61,541 nt of DNA from Thermoproteota archaeon (GCA_029258925.1 JAPDJV010000036.1:1-61541), one strand, 5' to 3'; counted from the stretch's first letter, positions 16,749 through 61,541 are shown. Notes: generated from the letters alone by a model not told the origin. Made by a program: numbers and translations.

Positions 16749-17152
16749 AATAACAGTATTGAAAGGAGAATAATAAAAATATCTTCACTCTTCTCTAAGG
16801 GCGTGAAGTAAGATCTGAGAAGGAAACTTATGGAAATAGGCTCGTATCCCTTGTACACCATCTTCCTCGCAGTGAACTCCTCAAACAGTGAACCACAATA
16901 CAACAGGCACACAGCAATCTATGTTGCAGAAGCTGATGATACACCACTGCAAAATAATTGTTAAAGGCGTGAATACCAAGTATGCCAGAATATTGTTAGA
17001 AACCATATAACCTTTACCTGCATTTGCAGAAAGCTTATTCTTCCATACAAAATAAAGTCTTAGGAAATTTCTCCAGTTAAACACGTATTATTTTATCCAT
17101 AGCCATTAAAACCATGCTGAATTGAAAGTGGGGAAAGAGAATGGGGGGTGAA
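16749..17152. other. Intergenic region without a recognisable gene
   Basis: AT-rich, with no open frame of coding character on either strand. The last bases contain GGGGGGTGAA (17142-17151), a strong ribosome binding site for the integrase remnant at 17153. Confidence 0.5.
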
Positions 17153-17398
17153 ATGGTTTTTTACAGGGTTAGGAGGATAAGAGGCAAGTATTATTTGATC
17201 AAGGAATGGTATGATCCTAAAGCTAAACGTAAGCGTTCTAGAAGTCTAGGTCCATGCATCGAAATAGAACGGATAATATCAATGGTGCGGGGGGTGGGAT
17301 TCGAACCCACGCAGGCATGCGCAGGGGGAGTCCCCCTTCTACGCCAGCGGATCTTAAGTCCGCCCCCTTTGTCCTGGCTCGGGCACCCCCGCATGTAA
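17153..17398 (+). pseudogene. Integrase N-terminal remnant, int(N), at tRNA-Leu(TAA)
   Basis: About 45 codons starting MVFYRVRRIRGKYYLIKEWYD run straight into the antisense of the tRNA-Leu 3' end and stop just past the tRNA. The same design (short basic N-terminus, then tRNA antisense, then recombinase) occurs at 54030-55145, where the complete integrase is present. In SSV-type integration the integrase gene is cut at the att site and its N-terminal piece is left next to the intact tRNA. No matching C-terminal piece is seen nearby, so the element is gone or lies beyond. Confidence 0.65.
17283..17392 (-). tRNA. tRNA-Leu(TAA) with a 22-nt insertion in the variable arm
   Basis: Acceptor GCGGGGG/CCCCCGC, T-arm GTGGG-TTCGAAT-CCCAC, discriminator A and encoded CCA. 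The anticodon arm is GCGGA-CTTAAGA-TCCGC, giving TAA. Compared with the tRNA-Leu(TAG) piece at 54.1 kb, which reads TGGCGTAG-GCCTGC in the variable arm, this gene has 22 extra bases (17317-17338) containing a GGGGG/CCCCC hairpin. A non-canonical intron is the likely explanation. Confidence 0.9.
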
Positions 17399-53481: not shown

Positions 53482-53596
53482 GCCGGGGTGGCCGAGTGGA
53501 CTAAGGCGGTGGGCTCGAGACCAGGCTCCGGCTACATGGCAGGAGACCCACTGCCCCATACGGGGCGCGCGGGTTCGAATCCCGCCCCCGGCGCCA
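53482..53596 (+). tRNA. tRNA-Ser(CGA) with 26-nt intron
   Basis: Acceptor GCCGGGG/CCCCGGC, T-arm GCGGG-TTCGAAT-CCCGC, a long variable arm (GCCCCATACGGGGC), discriminator G, encoded CCA. The anticodon stem GTGGG/CCCAC encloses 33 bases; removing 26 after position 37 leaves CTCGAGA, anticodon CGA. Confidence 0.88.
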
Positions 53597-54029: not shown

Positions 54030-55145
54030 GTGAAGTCAAGTAAACACGTCTACCGCTACCTCGTCATCGAAGAATACCACAACAGTAAGCGTAAACAGTT
54101 GTTAAGGTTACCCGTTGAGGAGGCGATGAAGAAGCTTTTGCAGTGGTGCGGGGGGTGGGATTCGAACCCACGCAGGCCTACGCCATCGGGTCCTAAGCCC
54201 TCGCGGAGCCAGGGGTTTGATGGCGGCCTCCTGGTGGACGAGGGGTTGCTGGGGAGGTTCCGTGAGTGGCTGCTTGCCGAGGGCCTCAGCGAGGAGAGTA
54301 AGCAGTTCAGAGAGTACTTGTCGAAGCTTTCCAGGCTTGAGGGCAAGTATCTCACCCCTAGCCTGGTGCACGACTATGCGGGGAGGAGTAAGCGGTGGTA
54401 TGAGTTGCTGAGGCGCTTGATCACGTTCATCAGGGTGCCGAGCGGCCTGGGGATGAGGGAGCTTGCCTTCGAGCTCAGGGAGAGCTTGCCGAGGAAGCCT
54501 AGGAGCGGGAGCGACACCTATGTTCCCCCTGTCGGGCAGGTTGTTGAGGCTGGGAGGAGGCTAAGGGACACAAGGTACTACCCCCTGTACCTGCTGCTTG
54601 TCTCCACAGGGGCAAGGCTGACAACTCTCCTCGAGGTCCTGGAGGACCTGGATTCTTCAAGGCTTGTTGAACTGGGCGGCGTGGCCAGGTACCATGTCGA
54701 CTATTTGCGGGGGGAGAAGGTCCAGTGGCTCCTCTACGGTCCAGCAGAGGTTTGGAGAGCGGTGCTGAAGTCCACGAGGCCCCCTGACAGCTATGATCTT
54801 ATAGCTGAGAAGGTGAGGGCGGCGGGGGTGGCCGTGAAGCATTACAGGAACTTCGTGTACAATGCGATGCTGGGCCTCGGGGTGCCAGAGGGGGTGGTGG
54901 AGTTCATAGTTGGCCACGCCCCCTCCACGATCGGGAGGCGAAGCTACCTGGCGAAAATCGTTCAAGCGGACAGGTTCTACCCTGTCTACGCCCAGTGGCT
55001 TAGGAGAAACGTGCTGGCCGCAGTGGATGGAGAGATGTGTGGAGACAGTGTTGAACACGGTTGCCTAGGCAACGTGTTGGACCGCAGCCTCCCTGCTGCT
55101 ACCTCTCTTCTCCGAGGCCCAGAGCCATGTGAGGAATATGGCTGA
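54030..55145 (+). CDS. int: SSV-type tyrosine integrase with internal att site
   Basis: A 371-residue archaeal integrase. Residues 1-39 are a short basic N-terminus like the int(N) remnant at 17153. Residues 39-60 come from the antisense of tRNA-Leu(TAG). After about residue 70 comes a core-binding region and a C-terminal catalytic domain with R (STGARLTTLLE), KHYRNF, VGHAPSTIG and Y (RRSYLAK). Start GTG 54030 is weakly supported. Integrase is normally cut at the att site in the integrated state; here the frame is uncut (see findings). GC rises inside this gene. Confidence 0.82.
   Translation: MKSSKHVYRYLVIEEYHNSKRKQLLRLPVEEAMKKLLQWCGGWDSNPRRPTPSGPKPSRSQGFDGGLLVDEGLLGRFREWLLAEGLSEESKQFREYLSKLSRLEGKYLTPSLVHDYAGRSKRWYELLRRLITFIRVPSGLGMRELAFELRESLPRKPRSGSDTYVPPVGQVVEAGRRLRDTRYYPLYLLLVSTGARLTTLLEVLEDLDSSRLVELGGVARYHVDYLRGEKVQWLLYGPAEVWRAVLKSTRPPDSYDLIAEKVRAAGVAVKHYRNFVYNAMLGLGVPEGVVEFIVGHAPSTIGRRSYLAKIVQADRFYPVYAQWLRRNVLAAVDGEMCGDSVEHGCLGNVLDRSLPAATSLLRGPEPCEEYG
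54144..54199 (-). repeat. att site: copy of the tRNA-Leu(TAG) 3' half
   Basis: From anticodon loop to CCA the minus strand reads CTTAGGACCCGATGGCG onward, then TAGGCCTGC, GTGGG-TTCGAAT-CCCAC, CCCCCGC-A-CCA. The anticodon is TAG. The 5' half does not follow: beyond 54199 the sequence no longer pairs as a tRNA (3 of 5 anticodon-stem pairs only, no acceptor strand). This is the typical crossover region for archaeal integrases. Confidence 0.85.
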
Positions 55146-55253
55146 CAACACTATTACAGGTATTCTGAGGGGAGCTGGGAGGCCGCCTGCTGCCACACCT
55201 ACCAGTATGCCGCAGGCGAATGCTTCAAGCATTTCCCCCAAACTCATCATCAA
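55065..55253 (-). CDS. Small membrane protein of the integrated element
   Basis: Not recognised. 62 residues with one or two hydrophobic segments (EAFACGILVGVAAGG, PVIVLSAIFLTWLWA) and a basic tail. ATG 55253 has AAGGTGTT directly upstream, a good ribosome binding site. Its 3' end overlaps the integrase 3' end by about 80 bases in antiparallel, which makes it less certain. Confidence 0.5.
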   Translation of the reverse strand: MMMSLGEMLEAFACGILVGVAAGGLPAPLRIPVIVLSAIFLTWLWASEKRGSSREAAVQHVA

Positions 55254-55285
55254 ACACCTTCTTTTTTCCGTAAAACATTGAACTC

Positions 55286-55635
55286 TTATAGGAGCCGTCT
55301 TCTCCTGGCCTCCTTTACAACTTGCCTGGCATAAGTGTATGCCTTCTCCTCCTCGTCCTCCCCATACACTTTATGGTAGTATTCGTGGGCCAATATTTTA
55401 AGTAGTTTCTCCACGCTTGAATACCATGGGACGCTTAGGAAAATAGTGTTCAACTCCTCCACATATACTCCATCAATCCAGGTGCCGTCATGGCTTGCAA
55501 GAATGATCCCACATCCTTCTCCTTGAGCTCTGGGTCAATCATCCACAGGACGTTTATGGCCCTCTTCAGTCTCTCCTTAAGCCTGGGCCTGCGGCTGGAA
55601 CACGTTTTCAACCGTCTACGTGGCCGCTTCCCCAC
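55286..55635 (-). pseudogene. HExxH metallopeptidase-like protein, frameshifted
   Basis: The first frame starts GTG 55635 (MGKRPRRRLKTC) and reads to LKEKDVG; one missing base near 55503-55510 then ends it early. Restoring the base joins it to a second frame: ILASHDGTWIDGVYVEEL, LLKILAHEYYHKVYG and EDEEEKAYTYARQV. HEYYH followed by an acidic EEEKA pattern resembles zinc peptidases of the ImmA/IrrE type. Total about 118 residues. It overlaps the end of the RHH gene, so the two were an operon. The lesion could be a sequencing error. Confidence 0.55.
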
Positions 55636-55783
55636 CCTTCATTCTCCCCCTCAACTCGTACAATGCTACTTCCACCAAGTGGCTTAGGCTTCTGAACTTC
55701 TTGCCGTCAACCTGCCTCCTAGCCCATTTAACGAGGTCCTCGTCTACTGTTACACTTATCTTCACTCTTCTCACGTATTTCAC
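55616..55783 (-). CDS. Ribbon-helix-helix DNA-binding protein (55 aa)
   Basis: GTG 55783 gives a beta strand KISVTVDEDLVKWARRQ followed by two helices (FRSLSHLVEVALYELRGRM), the pattern of RHH/CopG repressors. A TATA-like ATTTATATG around 55814-55822 sits about 26 bases before a start near 55793. It is divergent from the plus-strand gene at 55863 over an AT-rich gap, and probably controls this promoter and the downstream HExxH gene, an arrangement like small regulator-peptidase pairs. Confidence 0.7.
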   Translation of the reverse strand: MKYVRRVKISVTVDEDLVKWARRQVDGKKFRSLSHLVEVALYELRGRMKGGEAAT

Positions 55784-55862
55784 CCTACTTTACACTACTG
55801 TGTAGGAGCATATAAATATTTATACTACTTTTTCGCATAATATAGTATAGAAGGGGATAAAA

Positions 55863-56168
55863 ATGTTCACGAAAATAAGGTGGGTCATAGAGGGCAGAAA
55901 CCTCGACGCATGCGAGATAAAGGATCTTCTAAGAGTACTAAGCGAGGCCGAGATAATAGGGCAAATAAAGCTGTGCAAGGCACTCATAAGCGCTCTAAGC
56001 AGGCACAGCGGCGAGGAAATAAGCAAGAAGAAGGTGCTTGAGGGAATAGGTGAGTTCTTGAATCAGCTCGAAGAAGAATACTATAATCTTGTCAGCGAAG
56101 ACATGTTCTACGACAACCTAACATCAACAGTGCTCGGAGAAAAAACTGTGGTGAAAACACAAGTCTAA
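55863..56168 (+). CDS. Hypothetical protein of the integrated element (101 aa)
   Basis: Not recognised. Helical acidic-basic protein with two predicted helical halves (LLRVLSEAEIIGQIKLCKAL, VLEGIGEFLNQLEEEYYNLV). ATG 55863 follows GAAGGGGATAAAA, a good ribosome binding site, and shares a bidirectional TATA-rich promoter with the RHH gene. Confidence 0.65.
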   Translation: MFTKIRWVIEGRNLDACEIKDLLRVLSEAEIIGQIKLCKALISALSRHSGEEISKKKVLEGIGEFLNQLEEEYYNLVSEDMFYDNLTSTVLGEKTVVKTQV

Positions 56169-56258
56169 ATCAAACCTCTTTTCTCTTTTTTCTCTCAAGC
56201 GGAGAAACCATGCCTTTTAAAAGCAAGATATTAATAGTGCGCGCGCAAAATATTAGAT

Positions 56259-56309
56259 CAGGGGGTGTCTCGCCCCCTGCGGGGTGGTGGTGGCCCGCCA
56301 CGGCCCCGC
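56259..56309. terminator. Two GC-rich hairpins between converging genes
   Basis: CAGGGGG (56259-56265) pairs with CCCCCTG (56273-56279) around a 7-base loop; then GCGGGG (56279-56284) pairs with CCCCGC (56304-56309), with an inner GTGG/CCAC. They stand between the 3' ends of the 101-residue gene and the DUF3800 gene, after GCGCGCGC at about 56239-56246. A double terminator or a small structured RNA are both possible. Confidence 0.5.
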
Positions 56310-56322
56310 ACTTCTTCCACTT

Positions 56323-57108
56323 TTAAACTGTGAAAACTTTCAGTCCGCACCCAAGTATTCTTCCCGACGCGCATCTATCGAATTTTTCTTTAATTATATT
56401 GAAATAGTTGTTGAAGTCGAATACTGCACTCCGCGGCTTACTGTATTTCTTGAATATCGTGTAGGCTACTATGTCTGCAAGCTGTAAGGGTGTCATTTCA
56501 ATCGATGGATAAAATAATGGTATCTTGAAGACTCTTCTCGACGAGGGATACCTACTTGTATAGATGCCTTTCGATATTTCCTCCAATATTTTCTCCTTTA
56601 TCGACTTATCGTGGCCCACATCCGTCTCATCTATGACGAGCAGCATCACCTCATTTCCCTTGCCACGCTTATTAAGGTAAATGACTAGTCTCTCCAGCAG
56701 AAGAGAGTACGCTCGTTTCTCTATCTCCTCTCTGATAACCCTATCTGACTCTCTGCTTTCAAGTACAGACTTCTTCACTATTACGACAGATATTATTGTG
56801 CAGTTCAGTGATGCAATATAGTTACATAAAGCGTCAAAAAGTCTCTTCCTATCCTCCATCCTAACACTTCTATAATATCTCTTCCCATGGACAATGTCTT
56901 TTGCATGGATCTCGGCTTGGGGATCAATGTTCGAAATGATGCATGTTTTCAAGTCATGGATCTCCCTGCGGATCCTAACAATATCATCATCCTCAATTAT
57001 CAGCGCCGAAACGACAAAGGGTGTTTTCTCTTTCTTCGTGGGCTTCCCGCTCTCATCAATGAAGGCCACAAGCAATTTAACACCACTATACCTTACAACT
57101 CTCACCAT
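56323..57108 (-). CDS. DUF3800 protein
   Basis: RNase-H-like family DUF3800, frequent on mobile elements and in defence contexts; activity not established. Acidic residues of the fold are visible in VAFIDESGKPTKK, AEIHAKDIVHG, LLVIDETDVGHD and the final LQLADIVAYTIF. 261 residues. The true start may be TTG 57075 (LLVAFIDESG), because the TATA-like CTTAAATAT just upstream of ATG 57108 would start transcription after that ATG. Confidence 0.83.
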   Translation of the reverse strand: MVRVVRYSGVKLLVAFIDESGKPTKKEKTPFVVSALIIEDDDIVRIRREIHDLKTCIISNIDPQAEIHAKDIVHGKRYYRSVRMEDRKRLFDALCNYIASLNCTIISVVIVKKSVLESRESDRVIREEIEKRAYSLLLERLVIYLNKRGKGNEVMLLVIDETDVGHDKSIKEKILEEISKGIYTSRYPSSRRVFKIPLFYPSIEMTPLQLADIVAYTIFKKYSKPRSAVFDFNNYFNIIKEKFDRCASGRILGCGLKVFTV

Positions 57109-57365
57109 AAATATTTAAGATAAGGGGGCCTAGGCAGGCTGCCCCGCTCTGGACCGTTGGGTCTTGTTATGGTTTGGCCCGTTCTGATGTGTCCAGGGTA
57201 GGGTGGACCCGTTGCAATGTAGAGTTTAGCTGTGAACTGTATTGCAGCTACGTTATGTTCCGCCCTGAAGCTGCGTTCTCTCCCCCAATTATACTATTCC
57301 TTCTCTCGAACCTTTAAATACTCCGCCCCCTCCAGTTTTAACTTTCCAGGAGGTGTATGGAATAA

Positions 57366-58247
57366 GTGTCTAGCTCAAATACTGTCCAAATAGTGATAAG
57401 CCCCAAGAAGGTTATGAAGTGGGGAGGAAACTACGTTATCAGCGTCCCCAAGGAGGTCGGGGAGAAGCTTAGGGGCAAGAACCTGATGGTGATATTGAAG
57501 GTGTTAAACTTCGTATTGCTGCTTGCATTGATGGGTTCGGTGCTGTGGGTGCAGCCCGCATTAACGGCGGCAACCGAGTGCACTCCGATACCTGGAGACT
57601 ACTGGGTGGAGGAGTCATATACTGTGACGGTGAGCGGAATAGTTGAGGTTAAAGCGTACACCCAGGACCAGGTCCGCAGCCAGCTGCCCTGGGCGGTTCA
57701 CGAGAAGATAGAGAACAAGCTGGCGGGCGACGGGTATTCGTGGAGGTGGGACAGTAGGCATGGGTGGAGTGTCCAGGTGTGGGACACCCACAGGGTGGGG
57801 GACAAGTACTATAGCCACCTGAAGGTCCACTTCCAGCTGAACGTTTACAGCCATGAACACGGGTGGAAGCCTTCCCAGGTGAAGCAGCTGGTTATGGAGG
57901 CGTTTAGGGAGGCGTTCCAGGACAACAATATTCTAGTGTCCTACGAGATCCTGCAAGACGACTTCCACTACTGTCTATGGGCTGGCGCGCAGGCAGGGAG
58001 GCCAGGGCAGAAGTGGACATTTCAGTTAAAGGAGCCCTGGTGGAGGAGCCTAGCGTTCCAGCTAGCAGTATTGTTCGGGGGAGCCATAATCCTGATAACA
58101 CTATACGATTTGGCGAGAAAATGCTTGATGAAAAAATGGAGGAGGCCTAGGGGACATGAAAGCTGCCCTGCTGCTGCTAATCATCATGATTTTGCCAATA
58201 GCTGTTTTGCTGTTCTGGGGCAGGAAGCGTGGGGGGAAGAGTGGTAA
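57366..58247 (+). CDS. AbrB-like domain joined to a secreted or membrane protein
   Basis: Residues 7-43 match an AbrB/SpoVT swapped-hairpin domain (SPKKVMKWGGNYVISVPKEV). The frame continues without stop into a signal peptide or helix (VLNFVLLLALMGSVLWV, about residues 46-62), a 150-residue outer domain rich in Trp and Tyr, and a second membrane helix (VLFGGAIILITLYDLA) near residue 240. Translation may instead begin at ATG 57486 (MVILKV), giving an ordinary secreted protein. Start GTG 57366 has AGGAGGTG (57349-57356). The last about 35 residues overlap the next gene. Confidence 0.55.
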   Translation: MSSSNTVQIVISPKKVMKWGGNYVISVPKEVGEKLRGKNLMVILKVLNFVLLLALMGSVLWVQPALTAATECTPIPGDYWVEESYTVTVSGIVEVKAYTQDQVRSQLPWAVHEKIENKLAGDGYSWRWDSRHGWSVQVWDTHRVGDKYYSHLKVHFQLNVYSHEHGWKPSQVKQLVMEAFREAFQDNNILVSYEILQDDFHYCLWAGAQAGRPGQKWTFQLKEPWWRSLAFQLAVLFGGAIILITLYDLARKCLMKKWRRPRGHESCPAAANHHDFANSCFAVLGQEAWGEEW

Positions 58248-58254
58248 GGCTTGA
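58156..58254 (+). CDS. Tiny membrane protein (32 aa)
   Basis: MKAALLLLIIMILPIAVLLF then a basic tail. One clear membrane helix. Overlaps the end of the previous gene and shares TTGA with the next start, which places it in one continuous operon. Too short for most gene finders. Confidence 0.55.
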   Translation: MKAALLLLIIMILPIAVLLFWGRKRGGKSGKA

Positions 58255-58679
58255 CGCTCCCCTACAGCCTAGCTGAGAAAATACTTGACGAAATACGTGC
58301 AATGCTCGCAAAAAGGTTCAACGGTAAGCCCAGGCACGTTGCTACATCGCTGAAGGCAAGAGACCTCCTCGAATACGGGCCGCACACCGCTGCAATAGTT
58401 CTGAGAGAACTGTGCAAGCTAGGATACTGCGAGCAGACTGGGAGGAACAGGAGAAAATACATTTTCAAGGGGCCAGCGTACACGTGGGCCGTTGAATGCA
58501 GCTGCGAGAAACGACCTGAATGCCACTGCTGCAAGCTGAGGCTCAACTGCCCCTACCGCCACATCTCCAAGCAGCTAGGGAGGAGAGAAGCAAGAGCAAC
58601 AGCACCCATGAAAAACATGTCTACCAGTAAACGCTTCATTGAAGTGTCTACTAGTAAAAGAGAAGAGAAACAATTTTAA
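58251..58679 (+). CDS. Winged-helix-like protein with C-terminal cysteine cluster
   Basis: Not firmly recognised. Residues 1-90 look like a winged helix (LKARDLLEYGPHTAAIVLRE, then KLGYCEQTGRNRRKYIF). A Cys/His-rich stretch follows (CSCEKRPECHCC, CPYRH), which could bind zinc. 142 residues. The start appears to be TTG 58251 coupled to the previous stop. Last plus-strand gene before the regulator on the other strand. Confidence 0.6.
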   Translation: MTLPYSLAEKILDEIRAMLAKRFNGKPRHVATSLKARDLLEYGPHTAAIVLRELCKLGYCEQTGRNRRKYIFKGPAYTWAVECSCEKRPECHCCKLRLNCPYRHISKQLGRREARATAPMKNMSTSKRFIEVSTSKREEKQF

Positions 58680-58680
58680 T

Positions 58681-59469
58681 TTAAAGAAGGGGAATAAGCC
58701 CCCCTATCTCCCTCAATACGCGGGCCGTTTTCTCCAACTGCCTGGCGTCATCCAGCACTATTTCACGCATCTTCGCCTTCATCCACGGATTTGCCTCTAG
58801 AAGCCTCCTCAACTCTTTCTCCAGAGCGCTTCTCAACTGCTCTACAACGTGAAGGGAAGCAAGAGGGAAAATTATTTCCGTGAGGGGGAGAATCCCTGCC
58901 TCCACCTCTTTCGCCTTCACCTCATCATGAAACAACACGTTTAACATTATCACAGTAAGTATTCTGAAACATTCTTCTATTGATTTCGCTCCTTCCTCTG
59001 CACAAGATAGGGTGATCACTCTGGACAAATACTCTAGGTTGCTTAGACCCCACTCCTCCCACACTTCGAAGACGGGGAGAAAACTTCTTCTATTCTCCTT
59101 CACCGCAATACTGCCCAAACTCTTCAGCACATTATACGAGGAGAACACTTTTCCTACAGCCTCTAATCCACCTCCAATATTATCAATTACTTCGAAGAAA
59201 GCGTGGTGAAGCAGTCTTCTGAAACCCTTCTCCGTGACATCATAATATTTCTTCTTCAACCCCGTTCTGAAAACCTCCTCCCCGACAACTTCAATAAGCC
59301 CCTTCTTCACCATCTTCTTCAATTTAGTGAACAATGTTGTATGGGGGATGTCTGTTTCCATTCTCAACCTGTAGCACGTCATTGGGCCAGACGCGGCCAG
59401 AACATCAAGTACCTTCTTCTCCTTCTCATCAATGACAGACATGAAGATATATCTTGTTCCTTCCCCCAT
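58681..59469 (-). CDS. Winged-helix transcriptional regulator
   Basis: An N-terminal winged helix (KEKKVLDVLAASGPMTCYRL, FTKLKKMVKKGLIEVVGEE) is followed by a 170-residue helical domain without a recognised family. I chose ATG 59469 (MGEGTRYIF) because GGAAGGTGACAT lies just upstream; the longer frame to 59556 would read through the operator. It lies divergent from the AbrB-like gene, with a 12-bp palindrome between them, so it probably represses itself and that gene. Confidence 0.72.
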   Translation of the reverse strand: MGEGTRYIFMSVIDEKEKKVLDVLAASGPMTCYRLRMETDIPHTTLFTKLKKMVKKGLIEVVGEEVFRTGLKKKYYDVTEKGFRRLLHHAFFEVIDNIGGGLEAVGKVFSSYNVLKSLGSIAVKENRRSFLPVFEVWEEWGLSNLEYLSRVITLSCAEEGAKSIEECFRILTVIMLNVLFHDEVKAKEVEAGILPLTEIIFPLASLHVVEQLRSALEKELRRLLEANPWMKAKMREIVLDDARQLEKTARVLREIGGLIPLL

Positions 59470-59494
59470 ATATGTCACCTTCCACGATGAAGCA

Positions 59495-59526
59495 CGGATA
59501 TATCTCTCTTTGATGAGATATATCCG
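59495..59526. promoter_or_regulatory. 12-bp palindromic operator
   Basis: CGGATATATCTC (59495-59506) and GAGATATATCCG (59515-59526) are exact reverse complements around an 8-base spacer. A related AAGATATATCTT lies at 59444-59455 inside the start of the regulator gene. The palindrome is between the divergent regulator and AbrB-like genes, over their promoters (GATATATC can itself serve as TATA). Binding by the neighbouring winged-helix regulator is inferred. Confidence 0.72.
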
Positions 59527-59586
59527 ACATACGAACTTATAAATCATTCTAATCATATTATTATTGGGTTTAAACTGGGTGAAAAT

Positions 59587-59745
59587 ATGAGGTTACTAAG
59601 ACCAGTTCATCTTGTGAGGAAGGTCGTGCGCTCAGCCCGATACTACATGATCACTCTACCACGCCCCCTCGGCGAGCTCCTCCACGGGGAAACAGTGCTA
59701 GTTACGATTGAACCACTGGAGAATGCTATTGAAAACGAGCAATAA
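59587..59745 (+). CDS. Small AbrB-like DNA-binding protein (52 aa)
   Basis: MRLLRPVHLVRKVVRSARYY then MITLPRPLGELLHGETVLVTI matches an AbrB/SpoVT swapped hairpin, like the N-terminal part of the 57366 gene. Divergent from the winged-helix regulator over the palindromic operator. It is below the usual length cut-off but has a good start (ATG 59587) and domain match. Confidence 0.65.
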   Translation: MRLLRPVHLVRKVVRSARYYMITLPRPLGELLHGETVLVTIEPLENAIENEQ

Positions 59746-59799
59746 CAGTGTCGTGAGGTGATGAATGCTTCAAAAATAAAAAGGTAGGAGGTGAGATAT

Positions 59800-60189
59800 G
59801 TGGGTGTACTACTAAAAGAGAAGATGTGCTCTCGACATAAAAACACTGCTTTTCTTGCTGCGGAGGATTGTCTAAGAGAATATATTGTTTGGAAAATTAG
59901 GAGGTTTGGCGTAAGACTGCCCCTCTTCCTTCAGCCTAGGAGGATTGCGAGGACTTTCATCGACGACGAAAGTGTACATGCGTTGGCGTCTGCTATTGGC
60001 AAACTCCTCTCCAAGTACTGTGTTCCAGTCACCTCTTCAAGACCGAGAACATACAAGTGTACTTCGCGACTCTTGCAGCATCTTTTTGGCTTTCGCTATC
60101 AATCGCTCAGAGACAAGCGCAACTTTACACCCTTAGAGGTTATTTTCTTGACGTTGAGTCTGATGGAGGCGAGGAGATATGATGAGTGA
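59800..60189 (+). CDS. Hypothetical protein of the integrated element (129 aa)
   Basis: Not recognised. Basic, with an N-terminal LLKEKMCSRHKNT and four cysteines. GTG 59800 is preferred to GTG 59791 because TAGGAGGTGA (59786-59795) lies at the right distance. Overlaps the next gene by 11 bases, so it belongs to a coupled run of genes. Confidence 0.6.
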   Translation: MGVLLKEKMCSRHKNTAFLAAEDCLREYIVWKIRRFGVRLPLFLQPRRIARTFIDDESVHALASAIGKLLSKYCVPVTSSRPRTYKCTSRLLQHLFGFRYQSLRDKRNFTPLEVIFLTLSLMEARRYDE

Positions 60190-60667
60190 AGAGAATTTGG
60201 TGGGATATTTTGAGCAGCGGCTTGAACTAGCAACTAGAATAACGCGTAAGTTGGTTAAAGAGAGGTTGAAGAGACTTGGTTGGAAGAATACTACACTATT
60301 AGAAGAGAAGTTACTGGTTGTAATCTTTGATAAAATAACGGCGCCCACATATTACAGGCGAGCAAGAGATCTACCTAAGAAAGAATCCAGGCATCATGAA
60401 ACCATGGTTTTCAAGTTTTCACGTTCACTGAGGTCCAATGATTCCCTCATTGTCTGGCTGCGGAGGAAAATCTTGGAACCTCATCGGCGCAAGTACAATA
60501 TCACCTATGAGTTCATTGCTTCAGGTGATGAAACATTTGACACCAGCGGCATCAAGCTAAGTATTCCTCCAGGCACAGACCCACGGCACCTCCGCGAAAT
60601 AAGGAGGTGTTTATTGTGGCTCGGAAAAAAGGCCGACATTGAGGTAAAGGAGGTGCAGGAGCAGTGA
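60179..60667 (+). CDS. Hypothetical protein of the integrated element (162 aa)
   Basis: Not recognised. Lys/Arg- and Glu-rich helices at the start (FEQRLELATRITRKLVKERL), then a mixed region with TFDTSGIKLSIPPGTDPRHL. ATG 60179; its TGA overlaps the start of the next gene as GTGA, which indicates translational coupling. Confidence 0.62.
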   Translation: MMSEENLVGYFEQRLELATRITRKLVKERLKRLGWKNTTLLEEKLLVVIFDKITAPTYYRRARDLPKKESRHHETMVFKFSRSLRSNDSLIVWLRRKILEPHRRKYNITYEFIASGDETFDTSGIKLSIPPGTDPRHLREIRRCLLWLGKKADIEVKEVQEQ

Positions 60668-61541
60668 GACTTGTTGAAGCATATTCTGATTTAAGCACTG
60701 TCCTAGAGCGTTTAGCGGGAGACGGTGAGAGAAAACTGGTTAAAACACTCCTCGAGGCAGCGAGGAGAATAGAGGTTGAAGGTGCTGGCGGGAACGGCTA
60801 CGTTGTGAAAATGGGGGAGGCGGAGGCCAAGGTTTACGGGACCGTCAAGGCAGGGGACATAGAGCTCTTACTCTACAAGTCGGGTTTCGTGGCCGAACAC
60901 GGCCTCAGCCCGAAAGATGTTGAAAGCATTGCGAAAATCACTGAGACGTATGTTAACGGCGCGCTACAGCGCTTGGCGACGGAGGAGGTGGAGGTAAGAG
61001 AGCTTAACCACATCGCCGAAATCGAGGACCCCAACCTCTTCGGCTCCATTGTCGCCGTGAACGCCGTTATCGCATCGAATTCCGTAGCATATGTCGTTCC
61101 CGAAATCGTGAAGGCCGTTCCCATGGAGACCAGGTTTCTAATAAGAGACATGGATCCCTTCCTCCTCAAACTGGTGGGTGTCTCCGAGGATAAGAAGAGG
61201 AGGGTGTTGAGACATTACTTAAGAGGGCTGCTGCCTGGAAAGGAAGACTTCAACGTCGTGGAGGAAGGCTTCAAGATAATCTACAAGCTGCGGGTTAGAC
61301 CCCCCGTGATGGCGCTGGAGGAGAGGGAGGAGAAAATAGTTGATGAGAAGGGCTTTGAATACAAGGCTTATGATGTTTACGTAGTGGGTCATCACCCCAT
61401 GAGCTTCATGCCGTCAACACTGGTCAGACTGCAGGGTGTTGTAACAGCTGATCCGAGGAACCAGAGGATAACGTTGCTCGCCTACGACGTCAAGTTTCCA
61501 GAGGAGGCCGACGAGTACGACGCGGAGAAGCTACACGAGCT
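60664..61541 (+). CDS. Large protein of the integrated element, 5' part (cut by window end)
   Basis: GTG 60664 opens a frame of at least 292 codons running off the window. The first 210 residues are helical and acidic. From about residue 215 an EYKAYDVYVVGHHP and LVRLQGVVTADPRNQRITLL pattern looks like a beta-barrel (OB-type) region such as precedes the ATPase of MCM-like or other element-encoded helicases. That is an inference from general form; I see no ATPase motif in the part available. Confidence 0.6.
   Translation, partial: MRLVEAYSDLSTVLERLAGDGERKLVKTLLEAARRIEVEGAGGNGYVVKMGEAEAKVYGTVKAGDIELLLYKSGFVAEHGLSPKDVESIAKITETYVNGALQRLATEEVEVRELNHIAEIEDPNLFGSIVAVNAVIASNSVAYVVPEIVKAVPMETRFLIRDMDPFLLKLVGVSEDKKRRVLRHYLRGLLPGKEDFNVVEEGFKIIYKLRVRPPVMALEEREEKIVDEKGFEYKAYDVYVVGHHPMSFMPSTLVRLQGVVTADPRNQRITLLAYDVKFPEEADEYDAEKLHE

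Follow-up and report, generated by a model that had tools for sequence, protein, structure and literature searches.

The 61,541-nucleotide stretch of DNA analysed here (the window; GCA_029258925.1, JAPDJV010000036.1:1-61541), from a heat-loving Thermoproteota archaeon, very probably carries the larger, left part of a cryptic integrative plasmid from position 54141 on. This is a plasmid-like integrated element about 10.3 kb long, of the kind termed cryptic integrated elements, and lies in a tRNA-Leu(TAG) gene. The lineage of its helicase and an apparently restored, hybrid integrase are the unusual features of this element. The window is an entire contig (C9) of a 1.75 Mb genome in 56 contigs, 98% complete, which is the sole member of its family in the sample, within an order of four genomes. 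The right edge of the window is where the assembly stops rather than a biological boundary, and the element runs past it from its left attachment (att) site.

An element divided between two contigs

The left att (54141-54200) includes a 57-bp 3' half of a tRNA-Leu(TAG) gene on the minus strand (54144-54200). A search of the remaining genome with this half leads to an intact tRNA-Leu(TAG) on contig C31 (2882-2969), where the 60-bp core 54141-54200 is repeated without mismatch (C31:2879-2938), giving direct repeats at both ends of the element. Host DNA lies to the right of the C31 tRNA. A sequence-only reading of the window had proposed an integrated element starting at the tRNA att site and called for a search for the right att; the 60-bp att pair, the integrase and the intact tRNA at the right end bear this out. 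The change in base composition that it placed at the att is present overall (49.4% GC in the element part vs 44.5% in the host part of the window), but it is strong only in the integrase gene (59%), and the DUF3800 gene and some others resemble host DNA.

C31 begins inside an open reading frame (ORF; 1-1596) with an MCM P-loop domain (PF00493, Pfam E 7e-13), which is the AAA+ half of a helicase. The last ORF of the window (60664-61539, plus strand, in a feature that reaches the contig end at 61541) and the C31 ORF match adjoining parts of single homologous proteins from other Thermoproteota (L204-L207). The gap between the two matches is a constant 17-18 residues in all four homologues, and therefore about 50 bases are expected to lie between C9 and C31. 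A phage primase-helicase profile matches the two halves, mcmN (E 7e-11) and mcmC (E 3e-71; 2.8e-71), in the order of the join. The chromosomal neighbourhood also agrees. In G003, a genome of another family in the same order, speE, a tRNA-Ser(CGA) with a 25-base intron and tRNA-Leu(TAG) lie within 2 kb with no element between them. In the source genome, C9 carries speE and the tRNA-Ser immediately to the left of the att, and C31 carries the tRNA-Leu. The window copy of the intron-containing tRNA-Ser(CGA) (53482-53593) is an Rfam match that a default ARAGORN run misses. These observations argue that C9 and C31 carry one element whose helicase gene is split by the contig break; once joined, this gene would encode about 840 residues. 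Its length is therefore the sum of the C9 part, the gap and the 2.9-kb portion of C31 up to the intact tRNA (7.4 + 0.05 + 2.9 kb), or about 10.3-10.4 kb.

The C31 portion continues with an excisionase-type helix-turn-helix (HTH) gene (1816-2151; NCBIfam TIGR01764, 40.6 bits, cut-off 28.8) and a non-coding stretch. It ends with an ORF of the integrase N-terminus type (2756-2881) that runs into tRNA-Leu(TAG) and is the element's own N-terminal integrase piece, int(N).

An MCM-like helicase of a lineage shared with tailed phages

The last ORF of the window has no match in Pfam or in a PDB sequence search, and the large protein ending the overlapping genes had been listed as unrecognised in the sequence-only reading. 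An AlphaFold model built with six homologues (pLDDT 81.5) changes this. All 50 matches listed in the fold search are MCM proteins or MCM-containing complexes, among them the N-terminal domain of the M. thermoautotrophicus MCM (best E 5e-7), with modest TM-scores of about 0.3-0.4. The colinear homologues and the modelled fold confirm the ORF as an MCM-type helicase N-domain. The gene overlaps (59791/60179/60664) noted in that reading are also present. The AAA+ half has an intact Walker A (GDTTTGKS), Walker B (LLAIDE) and RTR motif. In five archaeal helicase relatives, L193-L197 (G233, G523, G385, G310 and G548), Walker B instead reads LLA(V/I/M)DG, which lacks the customary catalytic glutamate; DE is retained in the window element.

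The helicase resembles cellular archaeal MCM in its P-loop family (PF00493, 7e-13) and N-domain fold, but scores 231 bits against the phage-family profile vs 50 bits against the cellular MCMs of its class. In a 47-row tree, with sampling limited on the cellular side to MCMs of the source class, the cellular MCMs are split off by a 100/100 branch, and the element helicase groups with seven archaeal sequences (95/99), adjoining a clade of phage and IMG/VR sequences. This tree replaces one of 14 rows that left the element sequence unresolved. An origin from the host MCM was rejected on the 100/100 branch and the two bit scores. The helicase is thus assigned, from its sequence relationships, to a lineage common to tailed bacteriophages and to integrated elements in other Thermoproteota.

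IMG/VR contains at least 319 stretches with a gene for a relative of the helicase, and in 80 of these nearly all complete proteins have an N-terminal TOPRIM primase. The TOPRIM primase-MCM-like helicases of tailed phages (Bacillus phage BSTP12, Arthrobacter phage Wollypog and Microbacterium phages) are homologous and colinear with the element protein in their middle and AAA+ regions. Unlike these, the archaeal element protein has no fused N-terminal DnaG-type Zn/TOPRIM primase, and the first approximately 105 residues of the window helicase match no TOPRIM part. In G233 a gene for an AEP primase overlaps the helicase start (AEP-TOTE, 3e-28), and in G515 a weak match (E 0.087) gives a suggestion of a fused N-terminal Prim-Pol. 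The primase may therefore vary within the lineage, being fused TOPRIM in phages, AEP next door in G233, possibly a Prim-Pol fusion in G515, and absent from the window element.

At E <= 1e-16, 11 of the 398 genomes sampled from the phylum have a relative of the helicase, in some cases only a distant one; within the class, none of the 229 genomes does apart from the source genome. A scan of genome contigs with the helicase as query gave no relatives, nor did single-protein IMG/VR scans with the mcmN, integrase, 57366 and 60179 proteins as queries. In L204, L206, L207 and L208 the neighbour of the helicase gene is a tyrosine integrase, which is of another type (PF00589, as in G548) than the window integrase; the helicase therefore appears to be a module that travels between integrated elements. 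At the G310 locus (L207, 8014-8099 and 8167-9498), the PF00589-type integrase directly adjoins tRNA-Leu(TAG), the same tRNA species as the target of the window element, with a different integrase family.

A hybrid integrase and the nature of the element

The ORF at the left junction (54030-55145, plus strand) encodes a complete SSV-type (suicidal) tyrosine integrase of 371 residues that is a hybrid across the att. It matches Phage_integr_3 (PF16795, E 3e-36) and a PHROG integrase family (9e-48), in agreement with the integrase call of the sequence-only reading. Its C-terminal catalytic domain, int(C), belongs to the element and matches SSV integrase catalytic-domain structures along its whole length (3vcf, 3uxu and 4dks; E 5e-10). 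The complete protein aligns end to end with the integrase of Aeropyrum pernix ovoid virus 1 (APOV1; 50.6% identity, E 2e-102). The layout is that of SSV-type integration, with the att inside the integrase gene, int(C) to the right of the left att, and int(N) at the opposite end.

The first position of this ORF, 54030, lies on the upstream side of the att and hence outside the element proper. Because the element's own int(N) is, by geometry, the ORF C31:2756-2881, the 38 N-terminal residues encoded at 54030-54143 (plus strand), which align to the APOV1 integrase N-terminus, belong to the left host flank, and the flank therefore already held the int(N) of a related integrase. This piece is probably the remnant of an earlier related integration. 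Integration of the element is predicted to have fused the pre-existing int(N) in frame to the new int(C), giving a full-length hybrid ORF that could encode an active enzyme. Since both its N- and C-terminal parts resemble APOV1, the exchange history may be more complex than one scar.

Comparable arrangements occur elsewhere. Two integrated elements, L093 (G226, contig C34) and L095 (G051, contig C10; 1204-1410 and 9472-10461), pair a complete integrase at one end with an extra int(N) at the opposite end, and solo int(N) pieces adjoin tRNA-Leu genes in many genomes of the class. The window itself has a second integration scar at 17150-17392, a solo int(N) (MVFYRVRRIRGKYYLIKEWYDPKAKRKRSRSLG...; 17153-17392) that reads into a tRNA-Leu-like gene with an insert. 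It has 71% DNA identity over 244 bp to C31:2753-2969, with no int(C) nearby.

Integration has cut the integrase gene of the element itself. The left junction nevertheless carries a complete ORF, since an older element had probably left its int(N) in the flank, and the integrase could be made while the element is integrated. The HTH protein encoded next to the C31 int(N) may assist excision.

As for the kind of element, the combination of an integrase and att repeats with no recognised capsid, conjugation or casposase gene is that of cryptic integrated elements. No capsid, packaging, conjugation or Rep gene was found in any library searched with the element ORFs. VirB4/TraD-type conjugation genes, as in an integrative-conjugative element, are absent among these ORFs, and besides the integrase and general HTH families there is no significant PHROG match, including to the VP1/VP3 coat genes and other core genes sought for Fuselloviridae. 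The sequence-only reading had suggested looking for capsid, Rep or MCM genes beyond the window, and of these the MCM AAA+ half is present on C31, but no capsid or Rep gene. Structural-gene homologues that would place the element in a known family were likewise not found in library searches. A defence island was rejected since PADLOC gives no match. The element had been said to fit no standard virus or plasmid family, and most of its genes are indeed orphans, but the integrase has a close named relative in APOV1 and the category of cryptic integrated element (PMC6563490) fits.

The closest described systems share parts of this gene content. The cryptic integrated elements NitGar-E6 and NitEve-E3 of Thaumarchaeota (PMC6563490) also combine an integrase with MCM and have no capsid or conjugation genes, and NitEve-E3 has an SSV1-like split integrase (PMC6563490), but their remaining gene content is not shared with the window element. 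APOV1 (Betaguttavirus, Guttaviridae) has an SSV-type integrase about 50% identical and a tRNA-Leu target, but it has a DnaA-like gene where the window element has the MCM-like helicase. Membership in this group was rejected, the integrase being the only gene in common.

Some points weigh against the reading as a cryptic integrative plasmid. The roughly 50 bases between C9 and C31 are inferred and not read, no origin or initiator was identified in the element and no circular form was seen, and activity of the hybrid integrase is itself inferred. Half of the genes are orphans, and virion proteins could be among them; 57366 and 58156 encode membrane proteins. The element might instead be a provirus from a family not yet described, perhaps with a membrane envelope and resembling guttaviruses or pleolipoviruses. 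This would agree with the small size, as in many archaeal viruses, with the integrase being nearest to that of a guttavirus, and with a membrane-anchored protein with an external domain followed by a tiny membrane protein. It is distinctly unlikely, however, given that APOV1 shares no further gene, that neither a PHROG structural family nor a packaging ATPase is matched, and that only about 2-3 kb are left after the replication and regulation genes.

The extra int(N) in the left flank, the solo int(N) at 17 kb and the fusion of a membrane-protein ORF to an AbrB-like N-terminus could also mean that this is a decayed remnant, or a mosaic of two tandem elements, rather than a functional unit. This is unlikely, as all large ORFs are open, the helicase Walker A/B and R motifs are intact, and the att repeats and the operator are perfect. 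The complete integrase ORF might instead be an assembly artefact, the real flank having no int(N), since a contig break is nearby and the genome has related copies of int(N) at other places. Such an error is very unlikely: the sequence 54030-54143 differs from every other int(N) read in the source genome, the flank runs on without a break into tRNA-Ser and speE, matching G003, and L093 and L095 show the same combination of a complete integrase and an extra int(N).

With a cryptic integrative plasmid as the preferred reading, a broader proposal can be made tentatively: that one MCM-like helicase lineage spans archaeal integrated elements and tailed phages, swapping primases, and that solo int(N) scars restore complete hybrid suicidal integrases in cis, which would let elements regarded as trapped by their own integration express integrase and leave again. 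The source of MCM in bacterial mobile elements has been an open question, as bacteria lack an MCM that could have been passed on and these helicases have diverged strongly (PMC5862659). The well-supported neighbouring clade in archaeal integrated elements would be a concrete link to them and, if the proposal is true, archaeal elements would be the natural place to seek the origin of phage MCMs. The persistence of suicidal integrases has been explained by superinfection or recombination between elements (review, PMC8371274). A less complicated route would be for the next integration to complete its gene with an int(N) scar.

Regulation and accessory genes

The gene at 58681-59442 (minus strand, likely start 59442 or 59469) encodes a winged helix-turn-helix (wHTH) regulator of the TrmB/PadR type (PF01978, 2.5e-6) that is an orphan outside its wHTH. 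It is divergent from a rightward operon running from 59587 to the helicase. Between the two lies an operator candidate (59495-59526; CGGATATATCTC-N8-GAGATATATCCG), a perfect 12-bp inverted repeat with an 8-bp spacer that is unique in the window and has no counterpart in 300 simulated sequences (0/300). By eye, a TATA-like CTTATAAAT stands beside it at about 59534. The regulator with operator named in the sequence-only reading is thus recovered. The regulator would bind the palindrome and thereby set the switch between its own gene and the oppositely directed replication operon, and the circular form would replicate by loading the MCM-like helicase, with primase and polymerase supplied by the host. 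The replication and switch scheme is drawn from established properties of such proteins.

The first gene of the operon (59587-59745, plus strand) encodes an AbrB/SpoVT-like small protein that has no family match and is 45% identical (E 1.6e-9) to a small protein of the L093 element. It is followed by orphan proteins of 132 residues (59791-60189, plus strand, no match) and 162 residues (60179-60667, plus strand). The latter has a low-confidence ferredoxin-like C-terminal fold that was not used (model pLDDT 65.7, weak matches mostly to designed proteins). Of the 229 genomes of the class, only the source genome has mcmN, 60179, 57366 or the regulator.

The genes left of the regulator match no virus, plasmid or defence family in library searches. 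On the minus strand are a possible small membrane protein of 62 residues (55065-55253; an ORF with a hydrophobic stretch, overlapping the integrase 3' end), a 58-residue protein with HEYYH (HExxH; 55286-55462; DUF2268 E 0.011, below cut-off), a small orphan ORF without a match (55450-55635), a ribbon-helix-helix-like protein recognised by eye (55616-55783) and a DUF3800 protein (56323-57108; PF12686, 8e-15). A DUF3800 gene after int(C) recurs in an element of G174 (L086). The plus strand encodes an orphan 101-residue protein with no significant match (55863-56168), an orphan with an AbrB-like N-terminus (MazE/AbrB E 0.16 only) and, by hydropathy, two transmembrane segments around an external domain (57366-58247), a single-span membrane protein of 32 residues (58156-58254), and a 142-residue protein with a possible wHTH and a Cys cluster (58251-58679; HTH_27 E 0.11, not significant). 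The 57366 protein has no relative in the 229 class genomes, IMG/VR or phages, and the membrane protein may in fact begin at an internal ATG, at 57486. The earlier calls of a DUF3800 gene and a tiny membrane protein hold; the ribbon-helix-helix, HExxH and AbrB-like motifs can be made out in the sequence, though none reaches a family cut-off.

A 133-bp repeat, 93% identical, is shared by C31 (L015, 2255-2387) and the end of contig C17 (L016, 1-132). It overlaps a match to Sulfolobus sRNA133 that stays below threshold (C31 2227-2295, minus strand, E 6e-5), and it may be a small element, either transposable or a structured RNA.

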